NCBI GenBank assembly: GCA_030710605.1
Contig: CP092880.1
Coordinates: 9,848,072 to 9,912,071 of the forward strand
Direction of reading: 5' to 3'
DNA from: Cordylochernes scorpioides
Taxonomy: Eukaryota; Arthropoda; Arachnida; Pseudoscorpiones; Chernetidae
DNA: 64,000 nt
Positions within the stretch are counted from its first letter, which is position 1; every line of letters begins with the position of its first letter. Below, one piece after another: positions 3,968-43,313 of the stretch. The notes beneath the pieces were generated by a model that saw only the letters and a program-made list of their open reading frames with translations, was not told where the DNA came from and searched no databases. Both the position numbers and the translations under genes were made by a program.

Positions 3968-4067
3968 NNNNNNNNNNNNNNNNNNNNNNNNNNNNNNNNN
4001 NNNNNNNNNNNNNNNNNNNNNNNNNNNNNNNNNNNNNNNNNNNNNNNNNNNNNNNNNNNNNNNNNNN
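3968..4067. other. Assembly gap (100 N)
   Basis: Exactly 100 N, the conventional scaffold spacer. The base to its left (3967) corresponds to 60246 in the intact second copy. The next base there (60247) corresponds to 43213, not to 4068. Confidence 0.98.
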
Positions 4068-4280
4068 TGTACCTTCTGTAATTCAAAACTAAAAAATGAA
4101 ATCACTCACTATATTTTTGATTGCCCTGCTCTGAAAGAAGAAAGAAGAACCCTTATGCTCAAAACTGGGCAACTCTGTGCTTCACTTCCATCAATAATTG
4201 ACAATATGACTCAGAATAAGTATATTGCTACGGCGTTTTATGGTTTCCACAAGTCCATATCTCAGAAGAAGGCCAAGTGA
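4068..4280 (+). pseudogene. 3' end of non-LTR retrotransposon ORF2 (zinc-finger tail), truncated by gap
   Basis: Seventy codons are open from the gap edge to TGA at 4278. They begin CTFCNSKLKNEITHYIFDCP and continue ALKEER, the Cys-X2-Cys...His...Cys-Pro module that closes many LINE ORF2 proteins after the RNase H domain. The 5' part is cut off by the N gap. It is followed by a 3' UTR-like segment and a repeat tail. Confidence 0.75.
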
Positions 4281-4502
4281 TACTCACTCCTCACTTTCTT
4301 ACTGCTACTCTTTTTGTGTTGATTTCTTGCTTCCCTCTTTCTTATTTTTTTTCTTTTCTTGTTTTTTTTTTTCTTCTTCTTCTTACTCTGTATATACCGT
4401 TATTTCCTTTGTCTCACTGCTTTGTTCTTATGCATACCTCTGGTGAATCCTGTATAGGGTCAGTGACCCTAAATAAAGGCTTTTTTGTTGTTGTTGTTGA
4501 AT
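4281..4502 (+). mobile_element. LINE 3' UTR and (TTG)n tail
   Basis: A pyrimidine-rich stretch leads to AATAAAGG, then a T-run and TTG repeats (about 4476-4500). The same ending, AATAAAGGCTTTTG plus TTG repeats, closes a second fragment at 20461-20488, and a similar one lies at 1130-1146 and 57381-57402. The shared tail marks one retrotransposon 3' end family. Confidence 0.7.
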
Positions 4503-5775
4503 GGCATTCTTGAGCCCAAAGACCTCTCTTTACATCAACTGAGCCTGACGCTTCTGTATTTGGCAGAGAGGGGAATTCTTAATAAAGGTGATGGACTACA
4601 GAGAATTCCGCTCTGATAAAACGGTTATTAATTGTGTTCAGATGGTTCAGATTCATTTTGAACATGTAGAGATGCTTGAATCATCTGTGCAGTTTTGTCC
4701 TATCTGCTACAACCATCTTTCTAATATTCCTATCCCTTCTCTCTCTGTTATTACTATAGAGCGACCTGAGCTAGGTTTTTTTAAAACTTTTCTCTTCCTC
4801 TGACCACTGAGACTAAATCCTCAGAACAGTACTTTGATTTCAGTCTACTTTACAATTTCTCTAGTTGAAATTCTCCCTTCTCTGAAGTCTATGATTATGC
4901 CTTTTGTAAAATCACAAGCACACTTTGTATTCTACAGATTAAAGATGAGCTTAAGAATCCAAAATATATATATAACCTTACAACATAAAGTTCCAGAGAA
5001 TGATATAGGTGCCTCTTTTGGCACATATATAAATTAATTACAGTTTCAGAAATTTAATCATCTATATACCTTAATGTTGTTATTAAGTATGCACATTTAT
5101 GTAGCTAGTGTACATAGAAATTAATGTGATGCAATTCCCTGCCTTCTTAAAAGCTGGAGACTGGCCACATTGTAGTCATTAAATATATAAGAAATTACGA
5201 AAATAAATATAATCCTATAATATGCTTGATTTGTTTTTGAGGGCGTAGAAAGGGGTTGGTAAAGCCCTCTGAAGGTTAATATTAAGTAATTAGTAATATC
5301 ATTTTATTCGCGATAGAACTTGTAGCCCATTGTATGCATTACATCCCAAACACAATGCGACGCCAGACATCTCTGTCTTGAGCTCGATGTACAATCTCGG
5401 CGACCGTTATATTAAGAGGTAATGGAAAATAGGACCTTGCTCACAAAGTGGCTTTGCATTTTCAAGTTGATAAATATGCGCCATAGAAATGACGATTACA
5501 AATTTATGAAAAAGGCATCACAAAAATCATTATGATTCTCTAAAATTATAAACAGTAGAATTTCTAATAAGTCTTCTAAAATAATAGCTGAACCTGGTTT
5601 TGCTAGGATGTGATTCCTTATCAGAAATGGTTTTGTTTGAAATATTTCATATGACTTGACTAGACCAGCTGATAGAGACCACCTTCAGGAGAAACTGGGA
5701 TTACACATATTTTTAGGCAATTTCTCATATAGAAAACTACTGCATTTATTAGTATTTATAGATTTTTCTCCATAC
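4503..5775. other. AT-rich sequence without recognised features
   Basis: Apart from short open frames in AT-rich DNA I see no homology, repeat unit or splice-site pair. Bases 5771-5775 (catac) are the target duplicated by the Gypsy insertion. Confidence 0.5.
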
Positions 5776-5925
5776 TGTTATGATTGATCCGGCAACACTG
5801 CCGACTCGACTTGTAAACACTCTTCGATATATAACCATGTTATATAAAATAGATGTTACTAAATAAATACTTAGTTCAGTTGCATTCTGCGTGATCAAAT
5901 AGACACAAGAACAACATAAACAACA
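5776..5925 (+). repeat. 5' LTR of the Gypsy element
   Basis: 150 bp, starting TG and ending CA. It contains an AT-rich TATA-like stretch (about 5827-5850) and an AATAAA polyadenylation-type signal near 5861. Compared with 9919-10068 it differs at two positions (ggcaaca against ggaaaca; cttcgat against cttagat). Confidence 0.96.
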
Positions 5926-5937
5926 TGGTGGCAGCGG
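5926..5937 (+). promoter_or_regulatory. Primer-binding site matching tRNA-Leu 3' end
   Basis: TGGTGGCAGCGG begins at the first base after the LTR. It is complementary to a 3' end CCGCTGCCACCA, which is the acceptor end of animal tRNA-Leu (AAG/TAG type). The assignment rests on general knowledge of that tRNA. Confidence 0.75.
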
Positions 5938-5997
5938 AAAAGTGAGTACTTTTTCAAATAAATATATTATTGAAAAATATTAGTGAAAAAAGAAAAC

Positions 5998-7014
5998 ATG
6001 GACTTTGTTAGGCCTAGCGAACTCGCCCTGCACGGAAATGTAGCGGAAAATTGGCGAAGGTTCAAACAGCGATTAATGCTTTATCTTGAAGCAACAGAAA
6101 AAGCCACAAAGCCTGATAAACTGAAAGTTGCCATTTTATTAAATTTTATTGGCGAAGAAGCCTTGGAAGTTTTCAACACATTTCATTTAAAAGAAGATGA
6201 AGCAGACAATTTCGATCTTGTAATAAACAAATTTGATGATTTTTGCGAGCCTAAAAAGAACGTTATTTTTGAAAGATTCAAATTTTTTTCAGCGACCCAG
6301 AAGGATGGTGAATCCATTGATAGTTTTATAACAGAACTAAAAGGATTATCCACATCATGTGAATTTGAATCACAAAAGGATAGTTTAATAAGGGATCGCA
6401 TTGTGTATGGAATACAAGACAAGGCTTTGCAGGAACGCCTCTTAAGAGAGCCCAATTTAACTCTTCTAAAAGCCATTGAAATGTGCAAAACAGATGAAAT
6501 AAGCAAGCAACAGATCAAGATCATGCAGAACAACCAGAACATTTGTCAAATAAGAAAATATGAAAAGAAACACAGTCCAAAACAAAATCAAGAATCTGAA
6601 AAAGAATTCAAATGCCAAAGGTGTGGAAAGTCCCACAGAGCAAAAAATTGTCCTGCATGGGGTAAAAGATGCTCCAAATGCAAAAAGATGAATCATCTTG
6701 CAGCTTTCTGTAAAAGTTCAGCTATCAGAAGTCTGAATGATGAAACAGAAGAAACTGTATGGTCAATACATGAAGCAAAAGTAGTCCATACTTTGGAATG
6801 GAAAAAATCCATCATAGTGAATGGAAAGGAAATATGTTTCAAGTTGGACTCTGGAGCAGAAGTAAATGTTTTTCCATACACATTCACCAGACAAATGAAA
6901 GGTTTGGAAATATTTCAGACTAACCGAAAGCTAACATCATATACAGTACATGAAATCAAGATAAAAGGAATTGCCACACTAAATTGCAAACTAAAAATAA
7001 GACGGAAAGTCTAG
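5998..7014 (+). CDS. gag: Gypsy Gag with CCHC knuckles and the N-terminal half of the protease
   Basis: The first ATG is at 5998 (MDFVRPSELALHGNV...). The frame can be read back to 5983 but without an ATG. Residues about 1-190 are a Gypsy capsid-like region: a WRRFKQRLMLYLEA segment early, then a helical region with FNTFHL and RFKFFSATQ. Two zinc knuckles follow, CX2CX3HX4C and CX2CX4HX4C, near residues 204-238; these bind retrotransposon RNA. The aspartic protease active site LDSGAEVN is near residue 282. The frame then stops at 7012-7014, before the protease C-terminal motif, which lies in the overlapping pol frame. The break is at an A-run, 6993-6997. No standard slippery heptamer is in register, so a one-base loss or an assembly error is likelier than programmed frameshifting. 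Confidence 0.92.
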   Translation: MDFVRPSELALHGNVAENWRRFKQRLMLYLEATEKATKPDKLKVAILLNFIGEEALEVFNTFHLKEDEADNFDLVINKFDDFCEPKKNVIFERFKFFSATQKDGESIDSFITELKGLSTSCEFESQKDSLIRDRIVYGIQDKALQERLLREPNLTLLKAIEMCKTDEISKQQIKIMQNNQNICQIRKYEKKHSPKQNQESEKEFKCQRCGKSHRAKNCPAWGKRCSKCKKMNHLAAFCKSSAIRSLNDETEETVWSIHEAKVVHTLEWKKSIIVNGKEICFKLDSGAEVNVFPYTFTRQMKGLEIFQTNRKLTSYTVHEIKIKGIATLNCKLKIRRKV

Positions 7015-9878
7015 AATTTTTCATTGCTGATGGATACTATCAACCAATTTTAGGAATAGAAGCTATTGAAAAGCTTTCACTAATTAAGAAATGTGATGCT
7101 GTCCAAACAGAGCAAAACAATTCAGCAAAAGAAATTTTGAACAGGCACAAAAATATATTTGAAGGCATAGGAAGACTGCCAATTGAACACAAGATTAGAC
7201 TAAAAGAAAATGCAACTCCAGTTATTGCTCCAAGCAGAAAAATTCCTTTTTCCATTAGAGAAAAAGTTAAAGCAGAATTGGAACAGATGGAAAAACTTGA
7301 CATTATTGAAAAAGTTGAAGAACCAAGCGAATGGACACACCCTATTGTAGTGGTACAAAAACCTTCTGGAGATGTCAGAATTTGCATGGACCCCAGGGAA
7401 CTGAACAAATATGTTCAGAGAGAGCGCTATATTCTGCCAACAGCTGAAACAATATTTTCTGAATTGAAAGGTGCTACAGTTTTCTCTGTATTTGATGCAT
7501 CATCAGCTTTCTGGCAAGTCCCATTAGACAAAGAAAGCACCAACCTGTGCACCATTGCGACTCCCTTTGGAAGATTCCGGTTCAAGCGACTTCCCTATGG
7601 ATTGAACAGTGCATCGGAGGTATTCCAGCGATGCATAAACAATATTCTTTCAGGTCTCCAGGGAACTGCTTGCTATATGGATGACATCTTGATCTATGGA
7701 AACACAATGGAAGAGCACAACCGAAACCTTGAAACAGTTCTTCGAAGGTTGGAAGAAAATAATGTCAAGCTCAATGCTAAGAAGCAGCAGATAGCTGTCA
7801 ACAAAGTAAATTTCTTAGGCCATATAATCAGTCGAGATGGAATAGCCATTCAAGCTTCAAGAGCAGAGGCAATACAAAAGTTGAAAAGACCTGAGAACAA
7901 GACTGAAGTCCAAAGATTCTTAGGTATGGTAACGTACCTTGGCAAATTCATTCCTAATCTGTCTGACAAGACTGCACCTCTAAGGAAATTGATAAGCAAC
8001 AAGAGTGAATGGAAATTTGGAGGCGAAGAAAATGATTGTTTTGAAAAACTCAAGAATATGGTTTCGAATGCTCCAATATTGACATTTTTTGACCCAACCA
8101 AGCCAATCACCATTTCATCTGATGCAAGCCAATATGGTATTGGTACAGTGCTCATGCAAGGGGGACAAGCAATTGAGTATGCGTCCTTCAGCCTGAATGC
8201 AACTCAAAGAAAATACGCACAGATAGAGAAAGAACTTTTGGCTATAGTCTTTGGATGTGAACGCTTCCAGTACTATATTTGGGGAAATGATGTTATTGTG
8301 GAAACTGACCACAAACCTCTCCTGAGTATTGTTAAGAAACCTTTAGAAAAGCTTTCCCCAAGACTGCAAAGAATGGTCTTACGTCTCATGAGATTTCAAA
8401 TATCTTTGAAGTTTACACCAGGGAAAAACATGTTTGTAGCTGACCATCTGTCTAGAGATCCATTAAAAGATGAGGTGGACACAAGCTATTTAGAAGGTCA
8501 AACTGAATCGGTGGACATGTTGCTGGTTACCACAGATGAAAAAATAAAGAGACTACAAAAGGAAACTCATGGGGACCACACCTTGATACAACTAATAGAG
8601 TATGCGAAGAATGGATGGCCGAAATATAAAACTAAGGTCTGTGATGAAGCAAAACCCTACTGGCAATTTCAAGATGAAATTCATGTGAGTGACGGAATTG
8701 TTTACAAAGGAAATTGCATCATGGTGCCATCGACTCTTCGAAAAGAAATCCTGCAGGTTGTTCATTCATCACACCAGGGCATAGCAGCTTCCAAAGAAAA
8801 AGCAAGATCAGCATTTTACTGGCCAGGCATGATAACACAAGTAGAAAATGAAGTGGAAAAGTGCAGAACATGTCAGGAATATTCAAGAAAGAATCCTGAG
8901 GAGTCAAGAATAGCTCATGAAATCCCTGAATTTCCATGGGAAAAAATTGCTGTAGATTTCATGGAGGTGAGTGGAACCAGTTCCATCTTGGTTGTCGATT
9001 ACCACTCAAAGTTTGTTGAAATCCGGAAATTATCAAGCAAAAGAGAAACCGAAACCATCATGCAGTTGAAAACCATTTTCAGGACTCATGGAATTCCAAG
9101 AACTCTAGTTTCGGATAATGGACCCCCTTTTAACTCTACTGGATTCAAAAATTTTGCTCAGAAATATGAATTCAAACACCAAACCTCCAGTCCCAAATAT
9201 CCAAGATCTAATGGACAAGTTGAGAGGACAATTCAAACCATCAAAGGATTGATAATTAAAGCTGTGAAGTCAGGAAGAGATTCCAATCTGGCTTTGATGG
9301 AGTTCAACAACACACCTAAGTATGACTTGCCATCTCCGACCCAAATGCTTATGGGAAGATCTGTGAGAACTCTTTCGACATACACCCGACAACAGTTGAA
9401 ACCACTGTTTGACACAACAAAGAATTATCAAAAATTGAGAGACCATCAACAAAAGTATGCAGGAAGTCCAAAGAGAATTTTGAGACCTTTGGAAGTAGGA
9501 GACAACATCATGTTGCAGGAAAGGCATAGAAAATGGGTTCCGGCAACAGTGACCGCAAAGCATGAAACTCCACGCTCATATATGGTGAAAACACCAAGTG
9601 GTTCTGAATACCGCAGGAACAGGTCTCACCTTAGACCGAGAAAGTTCAGTGTAGAAGATTCTGCCCCAACAAGTCAAAGTCCAAGCATTCCTGGATCTCA
9701 AGCAGGGACAGCCATGGATGACAACATACAAGATCACGGAAGACCCACTTCCGAAAACAGAAGAGCATATGATCCAAGGGAGGACATTGCCAAGAAAGGT
9801 GAAGAATCATCTACTTCTCCTAGTGTGCGAACCCGCAGTGGTAGAACAGTGAGAAAACCTTTGCGTTATAGAGACTAG
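6984..9878 (+). CDS. pol: Gypsy Pol: protease C-terminus, RT, RNase H, integrase
   Basis: The frame is shifted -1 relative to gag and has no ATG at its opening (TTG at 6984), so it is a continuation, not an independent start. In order: protease end with PILG near residue 21; reverse transcriptase with VFDASSAFWQ near 166 and catalytic YMDD near 231; RNase H with SDAS near 378 and DHKP near 441; integrase HHCC finger (HSSHQG...CRTC) from about 592; DDE core with VDF near 655, SDNGPPF near 710 and the glutamate of GQVER near 744. A C-terminal module with LEVGD and HLRPRK (about 830-880) is followed by a polar tail. All catalytic residues listed are present and there is no internal stop over 964 codons. 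The product would copy and insert the element. Confidence 0.95.
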   Translation: MQTKNKTESLEFFIADGYYQPILGIEAIEKLSLIKKCDAVQTEQNNSAKEILNRHKNIFEGIGRLPIEHKIRLKENATPVIAPSRKIPFSIREKVKAELEQMEKLDIIEKVEEPSEWTHPIVVVQKPSGDVRICMDPRELNKYVQRERYILPTAETIFSELKGATVFSVFDASSAFWQVPLDKESTNLCTIATPFGRFRFKRLPYGLNSASEVFQRCINNILSGLQGTACYMDDILIYGNTMEEHNRNLETVLRRLEENNVKLNAKKQQIAVNKVNFLGHIISRDGIAIQASRAEAIQKLKRPENKTEVQRFLGMVTYLGKFIPNLSDKTAPLRKLISNKSEWKFGGEENDCFEKLKNMVSNAPILTFFDPTKPITISSDASQYGIGTVLMQGGQAIEYASFSLNATQRKYAQIEKELLAIVFGCERFQYYIWGNDVIVETDHKPLLSIVKKPLEKLSPRLQRMVLRLMRFQISLKFTPGKNMFVADHLSRDPLKDEVDTSYLEGQTESVDMLLVTTDEKIKRLQKETHGDHTLIQLIEYAKNGWPKYKTKVCDEAKPYWQFQDEIHVSDGIVYKGNCIMVPSTLRKEILQVVHSSHQGIAASKEKARSAFYWPGMITQVENEVEKCRTCQEYSRKNPEESRIAHEIPEFPWEKIAVDFMEVSGTSSILVVDYHSKFVEIRKLSSKRETETIMQLKTIFRTHGIPRTLVSDNGPPFNSTGFKNFAQKYEFKHQTSSPKYPRSNGQVERTIQTIKGLIIKAVKSGRDSNLALMEFNNTPKYDLPSPTQMLMGRSVRTLSTYTRQQLKPLFDTTKNYQKLRDHQQKYAGSPKRILRPLEVGDNIMLQERHRKWVPATVTAKHETPRSYMVKTPSGSEYRRNRSHLRPRKFSVEDSAPTSQSPSIPGSQAGTAMDDNIQDHGRPTSENRRAYDPREDIAKKGEESSTSPSVRTRSGRTVRKPLRYRD

Positions 9879-9918
9879 GAGAACTGCAATCCTTTTTTAT
9901 TTTTGTTTAAAGGAAACA

Positions 9919-10068
9919 TGTTATGATTGATCCGGAAACACTGCCGACTCGACTTGTAAACACTCTTAGATATATAACCATGTTATATAAAATAGATGTT
10001 ACTAAATAAATACTTAGTTCAGTTGCATTCTGCGTGATCAAATAGACACAAGAACAACATAAACAACA
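9919..10068 (+). repeat. 3' LTR of the Gypsy element
   Basis: 150 bp, near-identical to 5776-5925. The bases just upstream, 9909-9918 (aaaggaaaca), are a weak polypurine tract. The target duplication catac follows at 10069-10073. Confidence 0.95.
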
Positions 10069-10073
10069 CATAC

Positions 10074-11110
10074 AAGCATCGATAAAGTATAGGGAGCTAG
10101 AAAAACGCAGAATAGTAATGTCGAGCATGAGGGACAACTCTTTTGACACTAGGTATATCAGATCAGCAGACATGGTCATGTTTTGCTAGGTCATTCCTAA
10201 ACAACACTTGAAATTTTCTGGAGTGGGAGACTGCATACCCTTCCTTTGTGACTTTCTTTCTCTCTCTCTCAAAAAAAATCTTTGCGTGCTGATTTTTTGA
10301 CATTTTACTGAGACAAATAATCTTTTTCCTTCACAAACTCTCATTCAACCTTAAATTTAATATATATTTGTCCTTCAAATCTAAATATTCAGATGAGTCT
10401 AGACAGCCCTTATTCAGTTTTCTACAAATTCATCAATGGTAAAAGGAGTTTATAAATTCATCACTAAATATTTAATGCATTTTTAATTTTGCAGCAATTT
10501 GGTGAAGATAACAGAAATGGTAGGAAAAAAAAAAAAAAAAAACCCGCAAGGATATATCTTTTAAAAACATAAAAAATAACGATAAGCTTTTAAATTTTCT
10601 AAACATATTCAAGTTTTTATCATATTAACAGTATATTTTGTCACAAAATCATTATATGACTTATTTTCTCAGTTATTGTTTTGTCAAAAGGTTATAGAGA
10701 TTCATGGTTTATCATAAAAATATCTAGAATAATTTATATAGTTAATATCAGCCTACATATTTTGAAAGAATCAAAAGAGATTTTTACTATATTATTTAAA
10801 TTAGAAGTTCTTTTTCTATCTAAAAAAATAATGAGTTCTTAATTAAAATTCTTTAAACAAATTTCAAGCAACCATTTTAAGATTCTTCCCTAAGGATATT
10901 AAAAAAATATTTTTAAAAAATATTATTTAATTATCTCCAAAATAATAAATTAACCTTTAGAGTTCAACTGCTTTTTAAGAAATTTTATCATTACCTAATT
11001 TTAAATCTCATAGCAATGGTGCCAAAGAAATAATAACAACAAAAACTGAATATCCAAGCTCTACTTATACGCTAGTGTTAGAGGCATCATCATACGGACG
11101 ACTTGCCGTT
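10074..11110. other. AT-rich 5' flank of the ceramide synthase exon
   Basis: Very AT-rich with homopolymer runs (for example a long A-run near 10525-10542). Any promoter or 5' UTR of the downstream exon should lie here, but I see no clear TATA box or initiator and no coding sequence. Confidence 0.4.
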
Positions 11111-11295
11111 ATGGAGGACGGTTATCTAAATCGTTTGTGTTCTTGGTTTTGGAGTGAAGATATTTGGCTGCCACCAAATACCACATGGGCGGACTATGCA
11201 AAGACAGATGTTATAAAATATGCACAGTTTAATGACCTCTATTACGCATTGCTCGTTGCATTAGTTTTGTTGGTGGTTCGTTTCGTCTTAGAACG
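11111..11295 (+). CDS. Ceramide synthase, first coding exon
   Basis: ATG at 11111 opens 61 codons plus two bases, ending at a consensus donor (gtaagt from 11296) within an arginine codon. The peptide has the N-terminal ceramide synthase pattern: aromatic cluster CSWFWSED, then IWLPPNTTWADY, an acidic or polar linker, then a hydrophobic first membrane segment (YYALLVALVLLVVRFVLE) closed by arginine. Ceramide synthases are ER membrane proteins that N-acylate sphingoid bases; the catalytic Lag1/TLC region is encoded by later exons. I find none of those exons elsewhere in the window, so the gene is partial here. The long intron may be real, or downstream exons may be misplaced by the scaffold orientation discussed in the findings. 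The CERS paralogue is not resolved. Confidence 0.85.
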
Positions 11296-11497
11296 GTAAG
11301 TTATTTTAAAATATTTAACACTTATCTTTTTCTGACGTTTATTACATTATAAATATACTTGAGTTACACCCAGTTAAACCCATTTGTATCAGTTGCTAAA
11401 TATAAAGAAATACAAAATCAACCAGTTGTGTTTTTAAAGCTATACACCGCATTTTTATCAAAGCGGCATGTGAAAACAAAATTTAACCTTTTTAACC

Positions 11498-11533
<36 letters not shown>

Positions 11534-11984
11534 CCTCGGAATATATACAATTTAATAAAATGTCAAGACTAATTGAACACTTGAGATGTTAAAAATATTA
11601 AAATCAAACGAAATATTTAAAAATTAACAGGTTTCAAGTGTTGGTGAATTATTGTGTAAAAATTAAAACATTTGTTAAACATAAAAAATTGAATAGTTTA
11701 CTTCTTTTTACCAATTTTATTGACTCAAATGTTTGTATATCTTTTGCACATTACAAAAATATTGTTAAAATATGTTTTTATATTATTATAATTTATATAG
11801 AGAATAATAATGAGAAAAAATATGAATTTACTATATTTAAAAGAATATAATAAATGATAGAATTGAACTAAAGTATGTATTTTTGAAGAGTATAGCTGTA
11901 TAGATAAGGGGAAAGGTTTACATCAATAACGAATTATCATTTCTTTTAAAGCTCTGAGACATCAATAAAATAAATTAAGCAATA
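11296..11984 (+). other. Start of ceramide synthase intron 1, with (TA)n microsatellite
   Basis: The donor gtaagt is followed by AT-rich sequence. A (TA)n run of about 30 bases lies at 11502-11532. No further exon is recognised. Confidence 0.6.
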
Positions 11985-12165
11985 TAAGCATCACGCTGAT
12001 GAGGGCCAATAGCCTTAAATGTGTACATTTCTTGATTAATTAAGAAAAAGTTAGCCAATTCTGGAATAATTAATAATCAACAATTGATATTATTCTGACA
12101 GATGACGTAAGCCATCAGCAACATTTAGGTACATGATCTGGAGATGTTTTCTTGTAATTTATCAA
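11985..12165 (+). repeat. Dispersed repeat with GTAA-loop hairpin, copy 1
   Basis: Shares the phrases 'gctgatgagggccaa', 'ctggaataa', 'ttctgacagatg', 'gtaagccatcagcaac' and 'ggagatg' with 29735-29925, 35570-35705 and 48870-49045. The hairpin at 12101-12116 has stem GATGAC/GCCATC (one mismatch) around GTAA. Class unknown; no tRNA-like promoter seen. Confidence 0.7.
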
Positions 12166-12252
12166 TCTCATCCCAGTACAATTTCACTTTCTTTTTTCAT
12201 AAACATTATTGTAAAGTTGCATCTATAAATTATTTATTTATTAATTTTTTTT

Positions 12253-12548
12253 GCTTATTCCTAGTATACTTGATACAGGCCATGATAATCATGATGGGTA
12301 GAAGTAGGCGACTGCTTTTACTGTAAGTGCACCAAATGTCTACCCACGTGAAAAGCAGTCTGACTTTGCACTTACAAATGTGTCAGAGCTCCGTTTAGTT
12401 ACTTGTACTCGCTGGTGGGGTTGGACTTTTGCAAAATCGGGGGCATTGGAGCATTTTTTATTTTTAAATCAAAGTGCCCAATGTGGGAATCGAACCCGGG
12501 TCGTAGCAATCGAAAACCAACGGTTTAGACCATCCTTCCACCGACCCC
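12253..12548 (-). mobile_element. tRNA-derived SINE, family 1, full length
   Basis: On the minus strand: head ggtcggtggaaggatgg with an A-box-like region, B box at about 12491-12501, body with 'gcaagt'/'aagtgcaaagtc', and tail before the T-run at 12245-12252. It abuts the LINE 3' end at 12556. Confidence 0.88.
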
Positions 12549-12555
12549 CTATGTC

Positions 12556-13135
12556 TTCTTTCTAATCTCCACTCAATCATATCAAGGTACCAAGCTTGTC
12601 GAGCTTAAGATGGTGTCTGCTGGGGATGAGTAGAGCTCATCAAAGGATAAGGCAATACAGTCAACAATGTGGTTTGGGGTTTCAGGTTGAGAATTGCACT
12701 TAGTACATAGTGGGAAAACCTTGCAACCATTCTGGAAAGTCATCGTTTGCAGATAACCAGACTTAAGTCTGGAAATCAAAGAATGTTGTTCTCTTGGGAG
12801 ACAGCTTGACAGCTGGCTGGGTTCAGCTGGCCCGGCTGATAGTACCCTGTAAGGGCTCCTAATCCAGGAATACAGGATCAGCAGCGTTTGTACTCCATGT
12901 TAGGAGCGGCTGTACATGGTGTCTATTCCTCATGTCATAGGCGGCATTTCATATTGGAGCTAAGTCGGCCTGCCACCGAGTAGTACTCCCAGTCTCAATG
13001 ACAAAAGCAGACACATTCTACTTCACCCAATCATGATGGTTGTCAAGCTCTACTCACCCCTAACAGACTCAATAAAAAATCTCAAGCTCTACAGGTTTGA
13101 TACCCTAATATGATTGAGTGGAGATAAGAAAGAAG
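12556..13135 (-). mobile_element. LINE 3' end in inverted-repeat arrangement
   Basis: Both ends carry the same retrotransposon tail in opposite orientation ('tctccactcaatcat' at 12564-12580 and its complement at 13105-13120), so two 3' ends face outward. Between them are an ORF2 remnant and 3' UTR-like sequence shared with 21059-21318, 27706-28058 and 34686-35013. Confidence 0.7.
12582..12779 (-). pseudogene. LINE ORF2 C-terminal zinc-finger remnant
   Basis: About 65 open codons begin ISRLKSGYLQTMTFQNGCKV and then FPLCTKCNSQPETPNHIVDC. The pattern, a basic RLRSGH-type helix followed by CX2C...HI..C, is the end of LINE ORF2 downstream of RNase H. The fragment at 24200-24402 is a diverged relative (ARLRSGHIKTLKFQNGQK, then CLKCN). 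Confidence 0.75.
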
Positions 13136-13477
13136 AAGACCCATCCTGACATTTGTTAGATTAACAGATTTGGTAGGTATGAAGTTGTCTTGTAGTGACA
13201 TCATTCTGACAAATCAGAGTTTTATATCACCGGGGGGTGAGGACAAATATGACATAGCAGCTTCTCTTCTCCCACATAATATTGCCACATAGAAAATTAG
13301 GAAAGACAAACTTCAGGATGACATGGCAATTTATGTAAGGCATCAGCACAAATTAAAATTTATAAAATGTAAGAGAAGCAATAAGGGAAATAGCAGAATA
13401 GAAGCATTACAGAATTCTGTTTATAGAATAATAAATATTTTGCTACAATATCTCACCCTTAACGTTTATTCTATCTA

Positions 13478-13740: not shown

Positions 13741-14016
13741 TACCTATAGGTTTCCAAAATAGATCCATAGATCCCAAAGCAAGAATCACACTAGTTGTGT
13801 TCTTTGTACACTTTTAGATTTGTGCACTATGATGTTGGTTCGTTTAGATTAAAATGGTCTCAAGCAAAGGGGACAATATATATATTTAAAGAGGATCAAC
13901 TTTGTATACAAAAGCAAAACAAATCAAATCAAAGAACAAACTGTTTTTCTTTTTCTCGCGCGGGCGTGCCTTGCCTCTCCCAGACATAGTAAGCTCTTTT
14001 AAATATATGCCCAACT

Positions 14017-14640
14017 ACAACACAATCATAACAACCAGAAATTACCCCTACAACACAACTATAACAACCAGAAATTACCCCTACAACACAACTATAACAA
14101 CCAGAAATTACCCCTACAACACAATCATAACAACCAGAAATTACCCCTACAACACAACTATAACAACCAGAAATTACCCCTACAACACAATCATAACAAC
14201 CAGAAATTACCCCTACAACACAACTATAACAACCAGAAATTACCCCTACAACACAATCATAACAACCAGAAATTACCCCTACAACACAACTATAACAACC
14301 AGAAATTACCCCTACAACACAATCATAACAACCAGAAATTACCCCTACAACACAACTATAACAACCAGAAATTACCCCTACAACACAATCATAACAACCA
14401 GAAATTACCCCTACAACACAACTATAACAACCAGAAATTACCCCTACAACACAATCATAACAACCAGAAATTACCCCTACAACACAACTATAACAACCAG
14501 AAATTACCCCTACAACACAATCATAACAACCAGAAATTACCCCTACAACACAACTATAACAACCAGAAATTACCCCTACAACACAATCATAACAACCAGA
14601 AATTACCCCTACAACACAACTATAACAACCAGAAATTACT
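14017..14640 (+). repeat. 33-bp minisatellite, 19 units, with a 66-bp higher-order period
   Basis: The unit is 33 bp: acaacacaatcataacaacc followed by agaaattacccct. Two variants (…caatcata… and …caactata…) alternate nearly perfectly after the first three units, so the effective repeat is a 66-bp dimer. Since 33 is divisible by three and the unit has no stop in some frames, both strands appear open (an 11-residue repeat on each); this is a repeat artefact. Half of hairpin family B lies immediately downstream. Confidence 0.97.
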
Positions 14641-15161: not shown

Positions 15162-15232
15162 TTGCTTTTGGTTCAGTGGTAGAATGCTCGCCTGCCACGC
15201 GGGCGCCCCGGGTTCGATTCCCGGCCGATGCA
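15162..15232 (+). pseudogene. tRNA-Gly(GCC) pseudogene with replaced 5' acceptor strand
   Basis: From the D arm onward the sequence is a near-canonical tRNA-Gly: D arm ggttcagtggtagaat, anticodon arm ctcgcctgccacgcggg with GCC, T arm ccgggttcgattcccgg, 3' acceptor strand ccgatgca, then a T8 Pol III terminator (15233-15240). The first seven positions should pair with cgatgc but read ttgcttt, which does not. Those bases belong to an upstream repeat ('gtttgctttt', also at 14979). It is probably non-functional as a tRNA, though the A and B boxes are intact. Confidence 0.8.
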
Positions 15233-15363: not shown

Positions 15364-15375
15364 CATTCGGCTAGT

Positions 15376-34030: not shown

Positions 34031-34079
34031 ACCACAATTTTTTTTTTACTAAAATAATTTTTTTATTGTTCCTGGGCTT

Positions 34080-34143: not shown

Positions 34144-34346
34144 TTTAAATATACTTCAGGCATCTTTTGTTCTCTTATTACCCATTGATTTCAATGTTGA
34201 ATCCAAATTCTAAGAAATCTCTGCATTGAGATAGTTGACCTGGTGGTTAGTTAGATTAGATCAATATAATAATCATGTTGGATGAGGCTCAAGATGTTAA
34301 CTCATCAGATGAATTGACATTAGAATGTTTTCTTCTATAGCAAATT

Positions 34347-34490
34347 TAAACACAAGGTAATAAGACCAAATAAATAAATAGTGTGTGACGTTTCAGTAAC
34401 AGCATTGTTACCATCTTCATAACCGTTACCGAAACATCACACACTATTAGCTTATTTGGCTATTGGTCTTATTTTCTTGTAGCTATTTCA
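34347..34490. mobile_element. Hairpin family A, copy with shortened spacer
   Basis: 'cacaaggtaataagaccaaa', 'gtgtgtgacgtttcagtaac' and, on the right, 'ccgttaccgaaacatcacac' with 'ttggtcttattttcttgta'. The central spacer is nearly absent. Confidence 0.83.
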
Positions 34491-34685
34491 AAATAAAACC
34501 AATCCCATCAAAATGGATACAAAAACTGTGCACCATCTATAGTCTCCAAGTAGGTGTTCTGTATTGGCCAAAGCTGTGGTTTGTCACTGACCTGATTAGG
34601 TAAATAAATGCTGCAGAGTTTTTGCTTCTAAACCCCTCACCTTATTCTTTCATAAGTCCAACTCTTCCTATCATTGGCAGCAAAG

Positions 34686-35013
34686 TCTTCTTCTTTCTTA
34701 TCTCCACTCAATCATTAGGGTACTGGGTGAAGTAGAATGCGTCTGTCTTTGTCATTAAGACTGGGAGCACTACTCAGTGGAAGGCCGACTTAGCTCCAAA
34801 AGAAATGGCTGCCTCTGACATGAGGAACAGACGCCATGTGCAGCCGCTCTTAACATGGAGTACAAACGCTGCTCATCCTGTATCCCAGGATTAGGAGCCC
34901 TTACAGGGTACTATCAGCCGGGCCAGCTGAGCCCAGGTTTTTTAGTGAGCTTGTTACTGCTCCCCCTCCTCCTTTTTCATCCGGGCTTGGGACCGGCAAA
35001 GGCGGAGTTGGCA
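34686..35013 (-). mobile_element. LINE 3' region, close relative of 27706-28058
   Basis: Highly similar to 27706-28058 from 'cttatctccactcaatcat' to 'gggaccggcaaaggcggagt'. Coding remnants are too short to translate usefully. Confidence 0.78.
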
Positions 35014-35204
35014 GCAAAGTGGTAACAGGGTACTTGTCACCTAGCAGTTAAACCTGTAAACATTGCAGTTGTCTTTTCCAATCACCATAGAGGGTTAATC
35101 CAAGTACTAAGTAGTAACCCAAGGGGTATACCCTGGATGTTCAATATTTCCCTTTGTTTTAGGTATCCAACATTTTCAAATAATTGCTGGGTTACCCAAT
35201 GTCT

Positions 35205-35445
35205 CAAAAAATTTCAACTCTCTCCATTGTTATGACATTTCTAATTTTCAAAATCTTCACCATTGTTGGGTTCCCAAATTATAAATATGTTCAAATTTCT
35301 CTATTGTTGAGGTATTCAACTTTTCTTATTTTCAAAATAGTCTTCATTGTTGGGGGTTCCCAAATTATAAATATGTTCAATTTTTTCCATTGTTGAGGTA
35401 TCCAACATTTTAAAATAACATTCAAAAATTTCAATTGTTGAGGTG
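35205..35445 (+). repeat. Imperfect ~115-bp tandem duplication
   Basis: 'cattgttgggttcccaaatt' / 'ataaatatgttcaa' / 'ttgaggtattcaac' recurs as 'cattgttgggggttcccaaa' / 'ataaatatgttcaa' / 'ttgaggtatccaac', with a third decayed partial unit to about 35445. Confidence 0.75.
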
Positions 35446-35569
35446 CCCCATTTTTTTCTGCTTGGCTTTCTGGTATCCAAAAATTACCTAGAAGCAACAT
35501 TTATATTCACTGTAGCAGTTATAGAGGACAGTGAAAACTTGGCATATCAACTTGACAGCCTGTACCATG

Positions 35570-35705
35570 CTGATGAGGGCCAACAGCCCCAAAAATAATA
35601 ACATGGTTGGCTTGGTCATGATTTATCAAGAAAATGGATTAACTATTATCCTGGAATAAACCTAAATCAACATTTAATTGACATTTATTCTGATTGATAG
35701 TGATT
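35570..35705 (+). repeat. Dispersed repeat, copy 3 (partial)
   Basis: 'tgctgatgagggccaacagc', 'atttatcaagaaaatgg', 'ctggaataaacc' and 'tttattctgattgatag' match the 5' two thirds of 11985-12165; the hairpin part is lost. Confidence 0.7.
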
Positions 35706-36192
35706 TTGCCATATAAATTGCCAAAATGAATGTACCATTTTTCATTTTACTGGCTAGCCTTTTCTCTTCCCTCACTTTTTATCTTTTCATATTGGAACTA
35801 TTAGGCATTGGAGGCTAAGAGAAAAATATAAAATAAACGTGGAAATACATAATCCATCTCACGTGCAACTTTCTGGTAGAGGTATCTTTCAGGCTTTCTC
35901 TCTGCCGGAGATACCTCCAGGATTTGTCTCCTTGACAAGAGAACAATGGCTGAAGGAATGAACTCAGCAGTATTCTACAAGCTGGTTGTTCCTTTCCTGT
36001 TTTCTCCATTGTGGCTGTCAATACATCACATAGATAAACCCCTGCCGTCTCTAATATAAAACATAAAGTCTTTCATTCTACACCCATAGAGCTTTCAGTT
36101 GAATTAAAGTTATTTAGATGATTTCATCATAACATTCATTTCTAGTGGACTTTTTCTCTCTAGGATACATTCATATATATAATTAAAGTACA

Positions 36193-36487
36193 TTGTTATA
36201 TATTCATATTTTCATAGAGATTATTTATACAGCAAATGATGATGATAAACAATCTCTATGAAAATATGAATATATAACAACTAGCAAATGATGATGATAA
36301 ATAATCTCTATGAAAATATGAATATATAACAACTAGCAAATGATGATGATAAATAATCTCTATGAAAATATGAATATATAACAACTAGAAAATGATGATG
36401 ATAAATAATCTCTATGAAAATATGAATATATAACAACTAGCAAATGATGATGATAAATAATCTCTATGAAAATATGAATATATAACA
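36193..36487 (+). repeat. 52-bp tandem repeat, five units, preceded by an inverted half unit
   Basis: Units start at 36233, 36285, 36337, 36389 and 36441 (caaatgatgatgataaataa, tctctatgaaaatatgaat, atataacaactag). The 35 bases 36193-36227 are the inverted complement of the unit core, so the array starts with a potential hairpin. Confidence 0.92.
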
Positions 36488-36494
36488 TACATAA

Positions 36495-36661
36495 TATAGT
36501 AGAACCTCCCTTTAGCAGACACCTCTCTACAAAGGACAGTTTTCATTTTCAAAATTGCCATTTTTACAATTTAGCAACTCTCCGGTAAGAGCACACCTTT
36601 CCCTAAAGGATACTTTGGCTCTACAATTAGGTGTTGTCCTTTACAGAGAAGTTCTACTGTA
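36495..36661 (+). mobile_element. pogo-like MITE
   Basis: Ends TA-TAGTAGAACCTCCC and GAAGTTCTACTG-TA with the interior of the 'ggacacctctc' family. It sits directly after the 52-bp array. Confidence 0.88.
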
Positions 36662-36735
36662 TATTTTAGAAAATACTGTTGTATTATGTTTTAATTAATA
36701 ATGTAAACTGATGTCATTGGGGGACTTTTTATTAT

Positions 36736-36912
36736 TACAGTAGAACTTGGATAATTCGAACTTCTTTAATTCGAAAACCTCTTTAATTCGAATATTTATC
36801 TTGGTCCCTAGAAGCCTTAAGCCTTTATTCAAAACATCTTTAATTCGAATTTTTGGATAATTCGAATTTTTTAATGGTCCCTTGGGGTTCGAATTATCCA
36901 AGTTCGACTGTA
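36736..36912 (+). mobile_element. pogo-like MITE, second family ('aattcgaa')
   Basis: Ends TA-CAGTAGAACTTGGATAAT and ATTATCCAAGTTCGACTG-TA; sub-terminal 'ttaattcgaa' is repeated. Only 75 bases separate it from the preceding MITE. A related right end may be present near 37948 ('ttacactgta'). Confidence 0.85.
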
Positions 36913-37457
36913 TTATTATTTTTAGAATGCTTCATTATTAACACTTTTAGTGATGGATAAAATTGCATTTATACATTTTTGAACAAAGGAAAAATTACAA
37001 GTACTATTTTAATCTATGTGAATAAATACATTAGGAAAAAAAAAAGCAAATACATTTTACAAAAGGATAAAAATTTTATTAAAAAAAAAATCCTTTAAAG
37101 AAATTTGTTATGGTTGTTTACTTTAGGCTAGAACCCTATTTAGCATTTTAGTATTCAAAAGGCATGCAAGTTTTACCTCTTCTGTATGCCATTTTATTAA
37201 TAGACATTTTTATTTTGAATAGCAGAATGTTACTTTCAAAGAAACCAATGTTTACGCCGGTGTTTATCCATCACTTATGTTAGGCCAAAATTGTCCCAAA
37301 GTAAACAAAATCAGGCACTACATCGTTGCTGATATTTACAACACATTGTAATACTGTAAAACAACATTTTGAATATTATACCGCATGTATTTCTTTTGAA
37401 CGAAAAATCAAAATTTACCTCAAGGATAAATAACGATCATTTCTAACCTTGAAATGA
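36913..37457. other. AT-rich sequence without recognised features
   Basis: Long A- and T-rich runs; no repeats or exon signals recognised. Confidence 0.4.
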
Positions 37458-37617
37458 AGTTTTTTTTTTTTTTTACTTATTCTTGAGATGAAGTATGAAA
37501 GAATGAATTGTGAAGAGTAATGATAAACAGAAAAATAAAAGTGTCCAGGGATGGGAATCGAACCCGCAGTGTTCTGCTTACCAGGCAGATGTCTTGTCCA
37601 CTAGGCTAACATGGACA
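37458..37617 (-). mobile_element. tRNA-derived SINE with a well-preserved tRNA-like head
   Basis: On the minus strand 37617-37542 folds like a tRNA: acceptor strands tgtcca / tggaca pair, A box tagcctagtgg, anticodon stem tctgc/gcaga around loop ctggtaa (anticodon position GGT), B box ggttcgattcc. The T stem has a mismatch. It is followed by 'cttttatttttctgttt', a short body and an A-tail (T-run at 37460-37474), with a junction and tail like SINE family 1. GGT is not the usual cytosolic threonine anticodon, which favours a SINE or pseudogene over a working tRNA. Confidence 0.7.
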
Positions 37618-38109
37618 TATTTTTCCGTTCGTAAATAATACATAAAGTTATTTATAATACAATTTAATACACTTAATACTCTTAAGCACGGTATGCATAC
37701 GCTAACTACAGCCGCTGTGTCCCACATGTATTGTATTGTTAGCAATAAATTTGTATAAAGACAAGAATTATCTAATGTTATCAAAATTTTATTTAAAAAA
37801 ATTGGTCCAATTATTGTTTGGTTAATCCGTAATTGGTTAACGTTTGTTATTTGATATTGTAGAGGTCAGAACATGAAAAAACATGGTCGAATTACCACAA
37901 GTGTTGAATTAGCAGGAGTCAAATTAACAACGACATTACACTGTATATATATCAAATTTTATTAACAAACCTAATTATAATAAAAAACTTCAAAGTGGGC
38001 AAAAAAAAGTAAAAAGTGATTTTTTTTTGCTATCATTAATTAGAATGGCCATCAATATTAATGTGGCAATAAACTAAACATAGAAAATGATTACATAATG
38101 ATTCTTTTT

Positions 38110-38540
38110 TTGTCCCCTTATATACACTAGTGAAAATAGAAAGCTTTATACCCAGAGGAATTTGAAGAAAAAAACATGAAATATGGCTCATTAACTTCTT
38201 GTGGTGTGTAATTAATGAGTAAATTTTGTTTGCCAAACAAAAAAAAAAAAGCTAAAATGCCGAAACATTTTCATTTTTTTTTAATACAGTAGAACCTCCT
38301 TTTAGCGGACATCTCTCTGCAAAGGACAGTTTTCAATTGCAAAATTACCATTTTTTCAATTTAGTAACTCTCCGATAAGAGGTCACCTTTCCCTAAAGGA
38401 CACTTTGCCTCTGCAATTAGGTATTGTACTTTACAGGGAGGTTCTACTGTATTTGGTGTCTATGTAATAATCCGCACATTCATGTTCTAAGTGTTATGGT
38501 GTTCCACTTGTTCCTTTCTATTTCCACTAGTTATTGATAA
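38110..38540 (+). repeat. Dispersed repeat, paralogue of 42285-42745, carrying its own MITE
   Basis: 'atacccagaggaatttgaag', 'catgaaatatgg', 'ggtgtgtaattaatgag', then 'tctatgtaataatccgcaca' and 'ctatttccactag' match the stretch 42304-42735 in order. Here the pogo-like MITE 38285-38451 interrupts it; there a hAT MITE does. Confidence 0.75.
38285..38451 (+). mobile_element. pogo-like MITE
   Basis: Ends TA-CAGTAGAACCTCCT and GGGAGGTTCTACTG-TA, interior of the 'ggacacctctc' family. The paralogous repeat at 42285-42745 lacks it, confirming the boundaries. Confidence 0.9.
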
Positions 38541-38696
38541 ACAAACCCTATATTAAGAACTCTTGTCATCCTACTATTTAAAGACCATTCAAGTGAATAC
38601 TGACAAAATTCTCCTTAAAAATCAGCTGAAATTGATAGATGTAAAAAAAAAAAAAACTTGGAATAGTGGAATGGTGTTATTTTTTTAATTGGGGGG

Positions 38697-39008
38697 GTCA
38701 GTGGAAAAATGGTCTAAATCGTTGGTTTTCGACTGCTGAGACCCGGGTTCGATTCCTGCATTGAGCACTTTTTTTTTTTTTTTAATTTGAAAAAATGCTC
38801 CATTGGCCCCAGATTCTTGCAAAATTTCAATCCCACTAGCGAGTGCAAGTAACCAAACGGGGCTCTGGCACATTTTAAAGTGCAAAGTCGAACTGCTTTT
38901 CATATGTGTAGACATATGATGCACTTACAGTAAAAAGAAGTCACCTACTTCTATCCACCATGATTAGCATGGCCTGTACCACATGTACTAGGGATAGGCA
39001 AAAAAAAT
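38697..39008 (+). mobile_element. SINE family 1, full length
   Basis: Head ggtcagtggaaaaatggtc, B box gggttcgattcctgc, body and tail 'gggataggc' with an A-run, in family order with moderate divergence from 28866-29177. A further tail fragment on the minus strand lies at 39370-39414. Confidence 0.88.
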
Positions 39009-39576
39009 AATTTTTAAATAGATTATTTTAAGGACAGTTGCCACAGGTTCCAACCCTACTGTTTTCTCAACACCAATAATATTAGAAGGATCTTCCTCCG
39101 ACCAATCAATACTTTCTTTCTTGTCACTGCTACTAGTTATCAACCTTCACTGACGTCCGCTGAGACAGAAGATTTGCAAGAACCAATCTCTTGCCGTTGT
39201 GTCAAAGGAAACCTCAAATTGATGGTGCCTCTTCCTTCTGGACCTATGTGAGGGGTATCACTGGCATCATACTGTAGACATTGTAAAACTTCTCACCATT
39301 TTTTCAAGAGCCATAAACTTGATTTTAACCCGTGTACCTATTTTTTTTTACTCTAACCTTTTTAAAAATTATTATCCTTAGTACATATAGTACTGGCCAT
39401 GATAATCATGGTGTAATAATGTCATAATGTAATACTTGTCCTTGTGTGTCTGGGCGTGATCTTGTATATTGAGGTATCTCCGTTTGGTTGCTGTTGGTCA
39501 AGGCAGTCTCAGCAAACCTACTTAGAGAATCCCGGTAATGTGGACGTCTTGTATCGCAATGAGACATTATGTTGCT

Positions 39577-39826
39577 GATACTTATTCCAAGTACATATGA
39601 TCCATGATAACATGACAAGTAAAGCTTATTTATACTGTAGGTGCCTAATTCCTGTAGAAGCCGTTGGTATTTAGTAATATTCCAGAGCCCTTGCTTGGTT
39701 ACTTATACTTACCTGCTGGGTTGGAATTGTTTAAAAAATCAGGGGTCATAGAATCATTTCCGTGTTAAAAAAAAAACAGCTGCTTGCTTCAATGCCAGTT
39801 TTGAACCCAGGTCATATGGTTGCTAC
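39577..39826 (-). mobile_element. SINE family 1, old copy (also at 63640-63890)
   Basis: 'gcttggttacttatacttac', 'ctgctgggttggaattg' and 'ttttgaacccaggtc' (decayed B box) follow family order on the minus strand. Present in both block copies, so it predates the duplication or haplotype split. Confidence 0.75.
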
Positions 39827-39884
39827 CCGGAGATGGTGGGGGTGGGGCCATCGCTCGATGGTCTGCAGCCGCCGCTGATGTAAA

Positions 39885-40199
39885 ATGGATGCGGCCGTCG
39901 CCGCCGACCTACTTTCGCTCCCATACACAGCCCATCAGTTCCTCATAACGCCGTCGCCGCGGCTTAATGGATATGGACTGAGGGCAACATTATGCCGTCC
40001 AATCACATTTCGTCTATGTCACATTAGTAGGATCCTTGTACATCACTGTGCAAAGCAATTTCTAAAAGAGCAATGGACTATCTATCTAGACAATCTCTCA
40101 CAGTATTTACAAAAACAGTCCGTTCTTAGGTCGTGGAACTCTTCCAGTTTGCAGAAAGAATTGCTCAAACCATCTAATATAAAGTTTATAGTTTTGTAA
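39885..40199 (+). CDS. Small ATG-initiated ORF in CpG-rich sequence, unknown
   Basis: ATG at 39885 opens 104 codons beginning MDAAVAADLLSLPYTAHQFL. The first 120 bases are CpG-rich (gccgtcgccgccgacc, cgccgtcgccgcggc), unlike the surroundings. In the second copy (63582 downward) one codon is lost in frame near the start, several residues differ and the frame ends after 62 codons because of a short duplication near 63400. No family is recognised. It may be a 5' exon, a promoter island or chance. Confidence 0.25.
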   Translation: MDAAVAADLLSLPYTAHQFLITPSPRLNGYGLRATLCRPITFRLCHISRILVHHCAKQFLKEQWTIYLDNLSQYLQKQSVLRSWNSSSLQKELLKPSNIKFIVL

Positions 40200-41145
40200 C
40201 GGCCTCTTTACAACTTATAAACTTGTAGAAATAATTTCTCTTCATACGTTTATATTTATCGTCACATAAAGCTTCAGTTTTCCGTAGATGTTTCTAGCAG
40301 TCGATCCCTCAATCTGTAGATTTAACATTGAAGTTTGGTTCCATGCCCCGTTCTTATCTTGGATATGACACAAATGGAAAACTTACTTCCAACTTTCCTA
40401 GATTCGTTTGTTGAAATTGAGTCAAATGCAGATAGATATCCATGATCAATAACAATTAAACTTGTGCATTTACGTTTCTTTCATTTACTTCTTGCACAAA
40501 TTAAATTTTTATTTTTAATAACTTTGGGAGCTCAAAATATTCCAACAATAATTACATCAATGACGTCACCTTCTTTCCCCCTTCCCAGCTTGGCTTTTTT
40601 AAAATCAAAATTTCGAGTGAAGAGGAGAATAGGTTTATAGAAGTTTTGAGAGAAAGAGAGAGAGATAGCCAAGTGCATAAAATCTACATCAATTACTCAC
40701 ATTAAACACACGTGTCCAACACCGTCACATGAGCCAGATAGATTTTGGTCATAGATCTTTTGCTATAGAACATAGACATTGGTTTAAAGAAACTGAACAC
40801 TGTATTTTTTCATCAGGCTAGTAGTGCTGAGAGCGCGCACGCTTTGTGCTTTTTTAAAATTTAGTTGGATAAATCAATTTTACCCATCTAGGCCACACAC
40901 TCGAGAAACCCTCGGTTCGAATCCATCCAGTATTTTTCATAACGCCAAGTCCCATATTTACTGTAAGTACTGGGCTAGAGATTTAATATCGCTGTTACAG
41001 CTGGGGCGAGCTGTAATTGGGAGTCGTTTAACTTGGATTACAGAGCATTTAGCCTCGTTATATTGGCGGCGGGTTGTCACTTTTGTTGGGCACATCTTTC
41101 TCCAGCACTTGACATCCTCTGATCTCCTGGTCTTTGTGTGGAGAC
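40200..41145. other. Unrecognised part of duplicated block B
   Basis: 'ctcggttcgaatccatcc' at about 40910-40928 resembles a B box but no A box or SINE body is evident. No gene recognised. Confidence 0.4.
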
Positions 41146-41254
41146 ACCCTCAAATAACATCACAAAACGCCCATTAAAAAAAGTAACAAGCATTTTCAGT
41201 TACTTTTTTAATGGGCGTTTTGTGATGTTGAGAGTGTCTCCACAATCACATTGA
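41142..41254. repeat. Long near-perfect palindrome (about 45-bp arms)
   Basis: 'gagacaccctcaaataacat', 'cacaaaacgcccatt', 'aaaaaaagtaac' is followed after about 11 bases by the inverse 'gttacttttttaatgggcg', 'ttttgtgatgttgag', 'agtgtctcc'. The second copy at 62226-62336 retains it with small changes. Probably a short fold-back element. Confidence 0.9.
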
Positions 41255-41860
41255 TTGCTAAGAGTTTAACTAAAAGGTGATGTTGCTATTGATTTAGTCA
41301 AGTAAATTCGGTTTATCTGTTCAACTTTTCATTTGTTGCCGTGATCCTTTCGGGCGGTTCCAGCTACCATTGACGTCTCGGTTATTTTATTGTTTTTTCT
41401 TTCTTGTTGGTACAGTAGAACATCCCAGAAAATATGGTAGAACAGCCCCAAAACATAGCTACTCCTGATCGCCAGTAGGTGGTGGTATTTGCTGGAGGTC
41501 GTATTAGATGAAGACATGTCATTTCACCAAGGTGGTGTTCAGTGGATTATATAAGGTTGGTTCTACCACCGTCAATAGGCCTAGAGAATGACCTTTACAC
41601 CCCTCCCTAATCCTTCGATCAATTCCAGAGAGATTAGCGATAAACAACAGATGGGATCGTAGAGGATATCTCTGAGTCTAAATAAGATATTTACTTGGAA
41701 ACTTTTCCTTGTTATTTTGAAAGTTCCTCAGAGCCCGTATCCCATAGACGAACAAATATAAACTCCATGGATCGCTTTCTTAAAGTTATTTTCCCATTAT
41801 TTTTTTCCCAAGTGTTCTGAGTGTGACGCTCATAGGCAATCAAGAAATAGGATTTTTTTA

Positions 41861-42136
41861 TTATCCCTAGTACACATGGTACAGGCCTTGATAATCATGG
41901 TGGGTAGTAGTTGACGACTGCTTTTACTGTAAGTACATCACATATCTACACATGTGGAAAGCAGTTCGACTTTTGACCATACAAATGTGTCAGAGCCCCC
42001 ATTTGGTTACTTGCACTGACTGGACTTTTGCACAGAATCGAGACCATTGAAACATTTTTTTTATTATTAAGAAAAAAGAGCCATATGCGGGATTCGATCC
42101 CGTGACTTTTAGAAATCGACGGTTACCACTGACCCC
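41861..42136 (-). mobile_element. SINE family 1 with target duplication (also at 61325-61600)
   Basis: Complete family order on the minus strand with B box 'gggattcgatcccg' reading inward. 'aagaaatag' flanks it at 41842-41850 and 42141-42149. Present in both block copies. Confidence 0.88.
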
Positions 42137-42456
42137 TATAAAGAAATAGTCTTCAATAACTAATTGTCTAGTAGCCCTCTTCTTATCCTAAGAGCTGTTG
42201 CTTCAAAGCTCGACAATAGGAGACGCATTGTCTCTTTCTTTCTTTACCGTTGACACACCTTTGGCACAAGGGTCCTTAGCTATGTAACCTAAATAGAAAA
42301 AGTTATACCCAGAAAGAGTTGAAGAAAAACATGGAATTTGGTTTAAGTTAAATTCTTATGGCGTGTAATGAACCATTGAATTTTGTATACAAAACTTATA
42401 AAATGCTTAAATGCGAATTTATTTTCATAAAAAAAAAAAAATCATTTGGCCTATGT

Positions 42457-42644
42457 CAAGGGTCGGCAAACTGCGGCTCTTTGGATGTGAAGTTGCGGCT
42501 CTTTATATAGTTCCATACGCAAATATTATTTATGTGAGTACTATTTAATTGTTGGCAAGAAAAAAATGTATGGCTCTTTAAACTTTTGAAATTTTGTAAA
42601 TAGTAATTTTTGACTCTTCCTACTCAAAAGTTTGCCGACCCCTA
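42457..42644 (+). mobile_element. hAT-type MITE (also at about 60823-61015)
   Basis: Terminal inverted repeats CAAGGGTCGGCAAACTGCGG and CAAAAGTTTGCCGACCCCTA, with an 8-bp target duplication gcctatgt / gtctatgt (one mismatch) at 42449-42456 and 42645-42652. 'gcggctcttt' is repeated inside. The paralogous repeat at 38110-38540 lacks it. Confidence 0.88.
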
Positions 42645-43213
42645 GTCTATGTAATAAGTCCGTACATTCATGCCAAGTGTTTCTTGATATTCTATCAGGT
42701 CCTTCTGGGTGCCACACTTTCTATTTCCACTAGAGAATTCATATTTAATAAAGTTTGATTTGTGACAAGGGACAAGACATTTGAAATCATTAAGGATTTT
42801 TACGTAAATTCTACTTGGCAAACGATTTTCAGGCAATGCCCGTTACAACAGGTCATGGCTCAAAATAAAATCGGAACTTACATTCAAGAGGGAAAAAATG
42901 TATAAACTTTGTGTTGAGAGAAAAACTGGTTCATAATTTGACAAACACCTAAATCTGCAATAATGCCAGAAAACTGTATTTGCCATCCTTAACTAAATAT
43001 GCTACGTTTAGCTTTGAGGTGTTGGCGATGCACATGAAAAGAGAGAGGGGTTAGGGATGTGTAAGCTAAAAAAAAAATATCTTCTTCGTCTTTAGATTTC
43101 TAATTGATTTTGTTTATTGAAAAATCGAAGAAAATGATTTTATACCTTCCATCGTCCTAATAAAAGTAATGCTCGAAAGGTGTTGAATGGTAAATGGCAC
43201 CCTTTATGAGAGA

Positions 43214-43313
43214 NNNNNNNNNNNNNNNNNNNNNNNNNNNNNNNNNNNNNNNNNNNNNNNNNNNNNNNNNNNNNNNNNNNNNNNNNNNNNNNNNNNNNNN
43301 NNNNNNNNNNNNN
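43214..43313. other. Assembly gap (100 N)
   Basis: Exactly 100 N. The base to its left (43213) corresponds to 60247 in the intact copy, whose neighbour 60246 corresponds to 3967. Confidence 0.98.

Follow-up and report, generated by a model that had tools for sequence, protein, structure and literature searches.

A probable uncollapsed haplotig, split, half-reversed and inserted into its own allele in the Cordylochernes scorpioides assembly

Is the block between two gaps of the printed C18 sequence of Cordylochernes scorpioides simply placed backwards within the first of two copies of a locus, as an earlier note on this DNA had proposed, or are the two copies one locus that was assembled twice? 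We compared the window, i.e., the whole stretch of 64,000 nucleotides (C18:9848072-9912071), and 100 kb of flank on either side (264 kb) and searched copy-number probes across the 2.62-Gb genome (24 sequences). Coordinates are on the scale of the window, on which a position w of 1 or greater equals C18 position 9848071 + w; negative values and values above 64000 denote the flanks, and both -1 and 0 are counted ahead of the window. Four gaps of 100 N interrupt the 264 kb, starting at -75524, -28735, 3968, and 43214.

The first junction and the orientation of the block

The gaps that bound the block (3968-4067 and 43214-43313) are both exactly 100 N, as the earlier note had stated, and its reading of the sequence around them was reproduced. 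The intact second copy reads ...CAATGGGAGGATC up to 60246 and TCTCTCATAAAGGG from 60247; the first half corresponds to the letters running up to 3967, and the second, in reverse complement, to those running up to 43213. BLAST returned the former as a match of 57366-60246 to 1109-3967 on the plus strand (95.4% identity, 2,900 columns) and the latter as a match of 60247-64000 to 43213-39469 on the minus strand (94.6% identity, 3,784 columns). Since both matches combine such identity and length with limits that fall exactly at gap edges, a chance match is out of the question. When 240 bases around the cut, with 3967 joined to the complement of 43213, were aligned with the intact copy (245 columns, 7 mismatches, 2 gaps), no mismatch or gap lay within 24 columns on either side of the junction. 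The broken ends abut with zero base lost at 60246/60247, as had been claimed.

The collinearity is by no means confined to the junction: when reverse-complemented, 43213 to 4499 aligned with 60247 to 94396 in 19 collinear pieces, comprising 30,167 columns with 864 mismatches (2.9%). Reversal of the block at 4068-43213 brings it into line with the intact copy and makes the join at 3967 exact, and its backward placement is well supported. This part of the earlier claim stands, but the implied remedy does not, because reversal alone gives no full repair of the locus.

The second junction and the order of the pieces

The second copy starts exactly at 43314, the first base past the second of these gaps, and 43314 matches -13319, far inside the sequence that precedes the block. 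Immediately to the left, -15272 to -13320 matches -30656 to -28736, and -28736 is the last base ahead of the gap at -28735. Leftward, the match continues as far as -28635, with which the sequence resumes past that gap and which pairs with -43983. The contig that ends at -28736 and the one that starts at 43314 are matched by neighbouring bases, -13320 and -13319, and the alignment across this junction (242 columns) holds 3 mismatches and 1 gap, which lies away from the junction; again, zero base is lost. The flanks thus speak against the assumption that the two copies are two loci, to be repaired by a flip: the supposed first copy sits in the midst of the sequence that carries the second. Unrelated contigs would not be expected to have ends that fit together so exactly at two places, and the two zero-base abutments thus favour the reading of one of the copies as a haplotig.

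Four pieces describe the layout. Piece P runs up to -28736, the contig end before the gap at -28735. Beyond that gap, the first piece of the presumed haplotig, A1, extends from -28635 (C18:9819436) to 3967 on the plus strand (32,603 bp). The gap at 3968 to 4067 (100 N) would be a false join, as 3967 belongs beside the complement of 43213, and the second piece, A2 (4068 to 43213; 39,146 bp), lies on the minus strand, very probably in the wrong orientation. The following gap (43214 to 43313, 100 N) would likewise be a false join, as 43314 belongs directly after -28736. Piece B, the intact copy, begins at 43314 on the plus strand; it is free of gaps past the window within the 100-kb right flank and homologous to A up to +94396. 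The printed order is P, A1, A2 (reversed), B.

A1 and reversed A2 together form one stretch of 71.7 kb, termed A here. The left part of A1 (-28635 to -13320) matches -43983 to -28736 in seven chained pieces, and its right end (-13319 to 3967) matches 43314 to 60246 in four. Homology of A runs from its first base, -28635 (matching -43983), to +94396; the remaining 431 bp (4498 down to 4068) are the tail of a LINE. The homologue of A within P/B measures ~66 kb and is contained end to end, and A itself lies inside the cut in the P/B contig at -28736/43314. The limits of homology coincide with contig ends: it opens with the first bases of A and B and closes with the last base of P.

We consider it very likely that this arrangement is an assembly artefact, namely an uncollapsed haplotig (a heterotype false duplication) that was cut in two, reversed in one half, and placed within its own allele. 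The sequenced individual would have carried two diverged alleles of the stretch, both of which were assembled, one as contig P/B and the other as the shorter contig A, with its homologue inside P/B. Contig A would then have been left unpurged, each contig would have been cut once with no base lost (A at 3967/43213, P/B at -28736/43314), and the pieces would have been arranged in the order P, A1, A2, B, separated by 100-N spacers and with A2 reversed. The cuts presumably stem from a scaffolding program rather than from the contig assembler, and that program was probably drawn by near-identical allelic contacts.

Two alternatives retain the printed order to a larger extent. A tandem pair of real copies, of which only the block at 4068-43213 is misoriented, would account for the collinearity of the flipped block with the second copy and for the start of that copy directly past the gap at 43214. 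However, a tandem pair does not predict that -28635 to -13320 matches -43983 to -28736 and that the end of that match abuts 43314, whereas insertion into its own allele does. In a tandem segmental duplication the sequence outside the pair would be non-homologous, but here the left part of the first copy matches the preceding contig end, and we give this alternative very little credence. If the A haplotype carried a genuine polymorphic inversion of 39 kb whose breakpoints were the two gaps, only the printed order would speak for it. One of its breakpoints would have to fall at 3967 and at 43213 alike, each of them a contig end, with zero base changed, and the flank expected after 43213 is +94397 onwards, whereas the assembly continues with 43314, a step of ~51 kb backwards along the homologous locus. 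Such an inversion appears to us hardly credible at all.

The insertion of a haplotig into its own allele would also alter the repair. Flipping 4068-43213 would mend one of the three false joins; those at -28735 and 43214 would remain, as backward jumps of ~15 kb and ~51 kb along the homologous locus, and the doubling of ~66 kb of the locus would persist. A simpler repair would move -28635 to 43213 to the alternate haplotype set and connect -28736 directly with 43314. In its printed form, this part of C18 would hold a false duplication of ~66 kb, a false inversion of 39 kb, and three false joins, and errors of this sort would pass into recombination maps, structural-variant calls, and counts of genes based on the assembly. 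Testing contig ends for exact abutment against the other allele offers a cheap, read-free way of finding cut contigs.

Allele or paralogue

Contig A could also stem from a second, real locus, a recent segmental duplication of at least 72 kb with mobile-element insertions of its own; owing to its similarity to P/B, the scaffolder would have misplaced this paralogue in the sister locus, cut and half-flipped. Over their entire alignment, A and P/B differ at 1,524 of 61,563 aligned columns (30 pieces), i.e., by 2.48%. Mismatches of 2.5% imply high heterozygosity and count against the reading of A as an allele, and two copies at ~2.5% mismatches with independent mobile-element insertions would look alike under either origin. 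The mismatches are over-dispersed across 284 windows of 200 columns (variance/mean 3.05), a pattern that alleles with a history of recombination would be expected to show, although gene conversion or uneven mutation could give the same value. The comparison of A with P/B listed 24 size differences of more than 150 bases, and in 13 of them 2-14 bases overlap on the other side, the pattern expected of target-site duplications; target-site duplications were read base by base for one LTR element and one LINE only. Judged from such features, the SNPs, the length of a tandem array, and the mobile-element differences are of the allelic kind, although paralogues could look alike.

The extent of homology and the copy number of the surrounding sequence also bear on this choice. 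Three probes inside the overlap each gave two full-length matches among those scored, both at the C18 locus (100%/97%, 100%/94%, and 100%/91% identity), in addition to partial repeat matches; the 94% and 91% probes overlap repeats, and for these 40 of 2,516 and 40 of 1,276 candidates, respectively, were scored. A probe at +95100 to 95599, ~0.7 kb to the right of where homology ends, gave one full-length match and nine short ones, and the sequence just beyond A is single copy on the right side. A paralogous contig would be expected to extend into its own flank, but the whole of A lies within the homologous stretch, and homology stops about where A stops, as indicated on the right side by the single-copy probe. 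A doubled locus of the same kind on C9, described below, suggests that such doubling is general to the assembly and likewise speaks against a misplaced paralogue, which we therefore regard as unlikely. We infer that A is an allele of P/B.

In its account of false duplications, PMC8081667 describes heterotype duplications as separate haplotype contigs placed in the primary assembly, and PMC6421076, where it deals with Hi-C scaffolds, describes undercollapsed heterozygosity among them. The C18 locus resembles the heterotype case in that contigs of both haplotypes would stand in one primary assembly, where they can be misread as a segmental duplication (PMC8081667), but differs from that account in that the haplotig would, in addition, have been cut in two, reversed in one half, and set into a cut in its own allele. 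The chromosome-length scaffolds treated in PMC6421076 similarly contained overlapping, unmerged contigs of alternative haplotypes that called for a merge step; there, according to that description, the contigs were merged, whereas the present assembly retains both, with an orientation error.

Mobile elements at the locus and a second doubled locus

An LTR retrotransposon at 5776 to 10068 on the plus strand (4,293 bp) is present in A and absent from B. It is bounded by terminal repeats of 150 bp (TG...CA) with two differences and by a 5-bp target-site duplication, and an empty site lies in B near +90670. Its pol frame (6984-9878) matches Pfam RVT_1, RNase H, Integrase_H2C2, and rve; the first frame (5983-7014) gave no Pfam match and was taken as gag from its position. 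The element is young and occurs on one copy of the locus only.

Conversely, B carries a LINE at +91502 to +93945, a 2,444-bp insertion with a 14-base target duplication and a Pfam RVT_1 match, which is absent from A. The 3' end of a LINE of the same family occupies 4068 to 4499 on the plus strand, where A2 terminates within the element; this tail is 94.8% identical to the LINE of B over 446 columns. Another copy at +154224 to +156203 is 99.5% identical to the LINE at +91502 to +93945 over 1,982 columns. The family has probably been active recently. Tandem duplication by recombination between LINEs was considered as an origin of the two copies and set aside, as it is needless given the abutment of -28736 and 43314 and lacks an upstream LINE match: for the LINE of B (91502-93945), the one family searched, no match in the 100-kb left flank exceeded 42 columns.

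A tandem array of a 33-bp unit at 14015 to 14639 (plus strand) comprises 18.9 copies in A and is shorter by ~500 bases in B; it is open in several frames on both strands. Between -20000 and 98000 there are 191 stop-to-stop frames of at least 75 amino acids, the longest of which belong to the LTR element (two frames), the LINE, and the tandem array. Of four frames compared with Pfam, two matched families (reverse transcriptase, RNase H, integrase) and the other two gave none; no host gene was identified by these comparisons. Rfam returned two tRNA matches, at 15164-15232 (plus strand, 39.4 bits) and 37543-37615 (minus strand, 37 bits; cut-off 29), which are perhaps the heads of tRNA-derived SINEs.

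The doubled locus on C9 consists of 47915033-47930868, 100 N, and 47930969-47936716, which match 47948264-47963880 and 47963881-47969801, respectively, in five pieces at 95.2-99.0% identity, with 165 bases of the partner outside the comparison. At the cut between 47930868 and 47930969 zero base is lost and the orientation is correct. This second doubling suggests that the error is general to the assembly and not a single case. Further pairs of repeat matches, each pair on one chromosome and 21-120 kb apart, were found among the probe matches listed, and in the two pairs for which 3-kb loci were compared, the loci were near-identical over nearly their whole length (98.5% for a pair on C12, 99.6% for the pair that led to the doubled C9 locus).

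Cuts at restriction sites were considered as a cause and rejected, as GATC occurs at only one of the three zero-base cuts and the motif was counted only in retrospect. GATC, a DpnII/MboI site, is present at two of the 14 contig ends of seven gaps, namely at the end at 3967 and at the C9 contig start 47948192.

Some of the matched pairs also differ in strand. With the 100%/91% probe, pairs were observed at C7:35.09/35.14, C15:35.45/35.51, C3:33.38/33.50, and C10:63.66/63.69 Mb, on opposite strands, with equal or near-equal scores and 21-119 kb apart; these four are candidate doubled, reversed haplotigs. The +95100 probe gave two pairs of very short matches (C17 and C10) in opposite orientation, and pairs on the same strand were seen on C12, C9, C2, C1, and C10 with the 100%/97% and 100%/94% probes.
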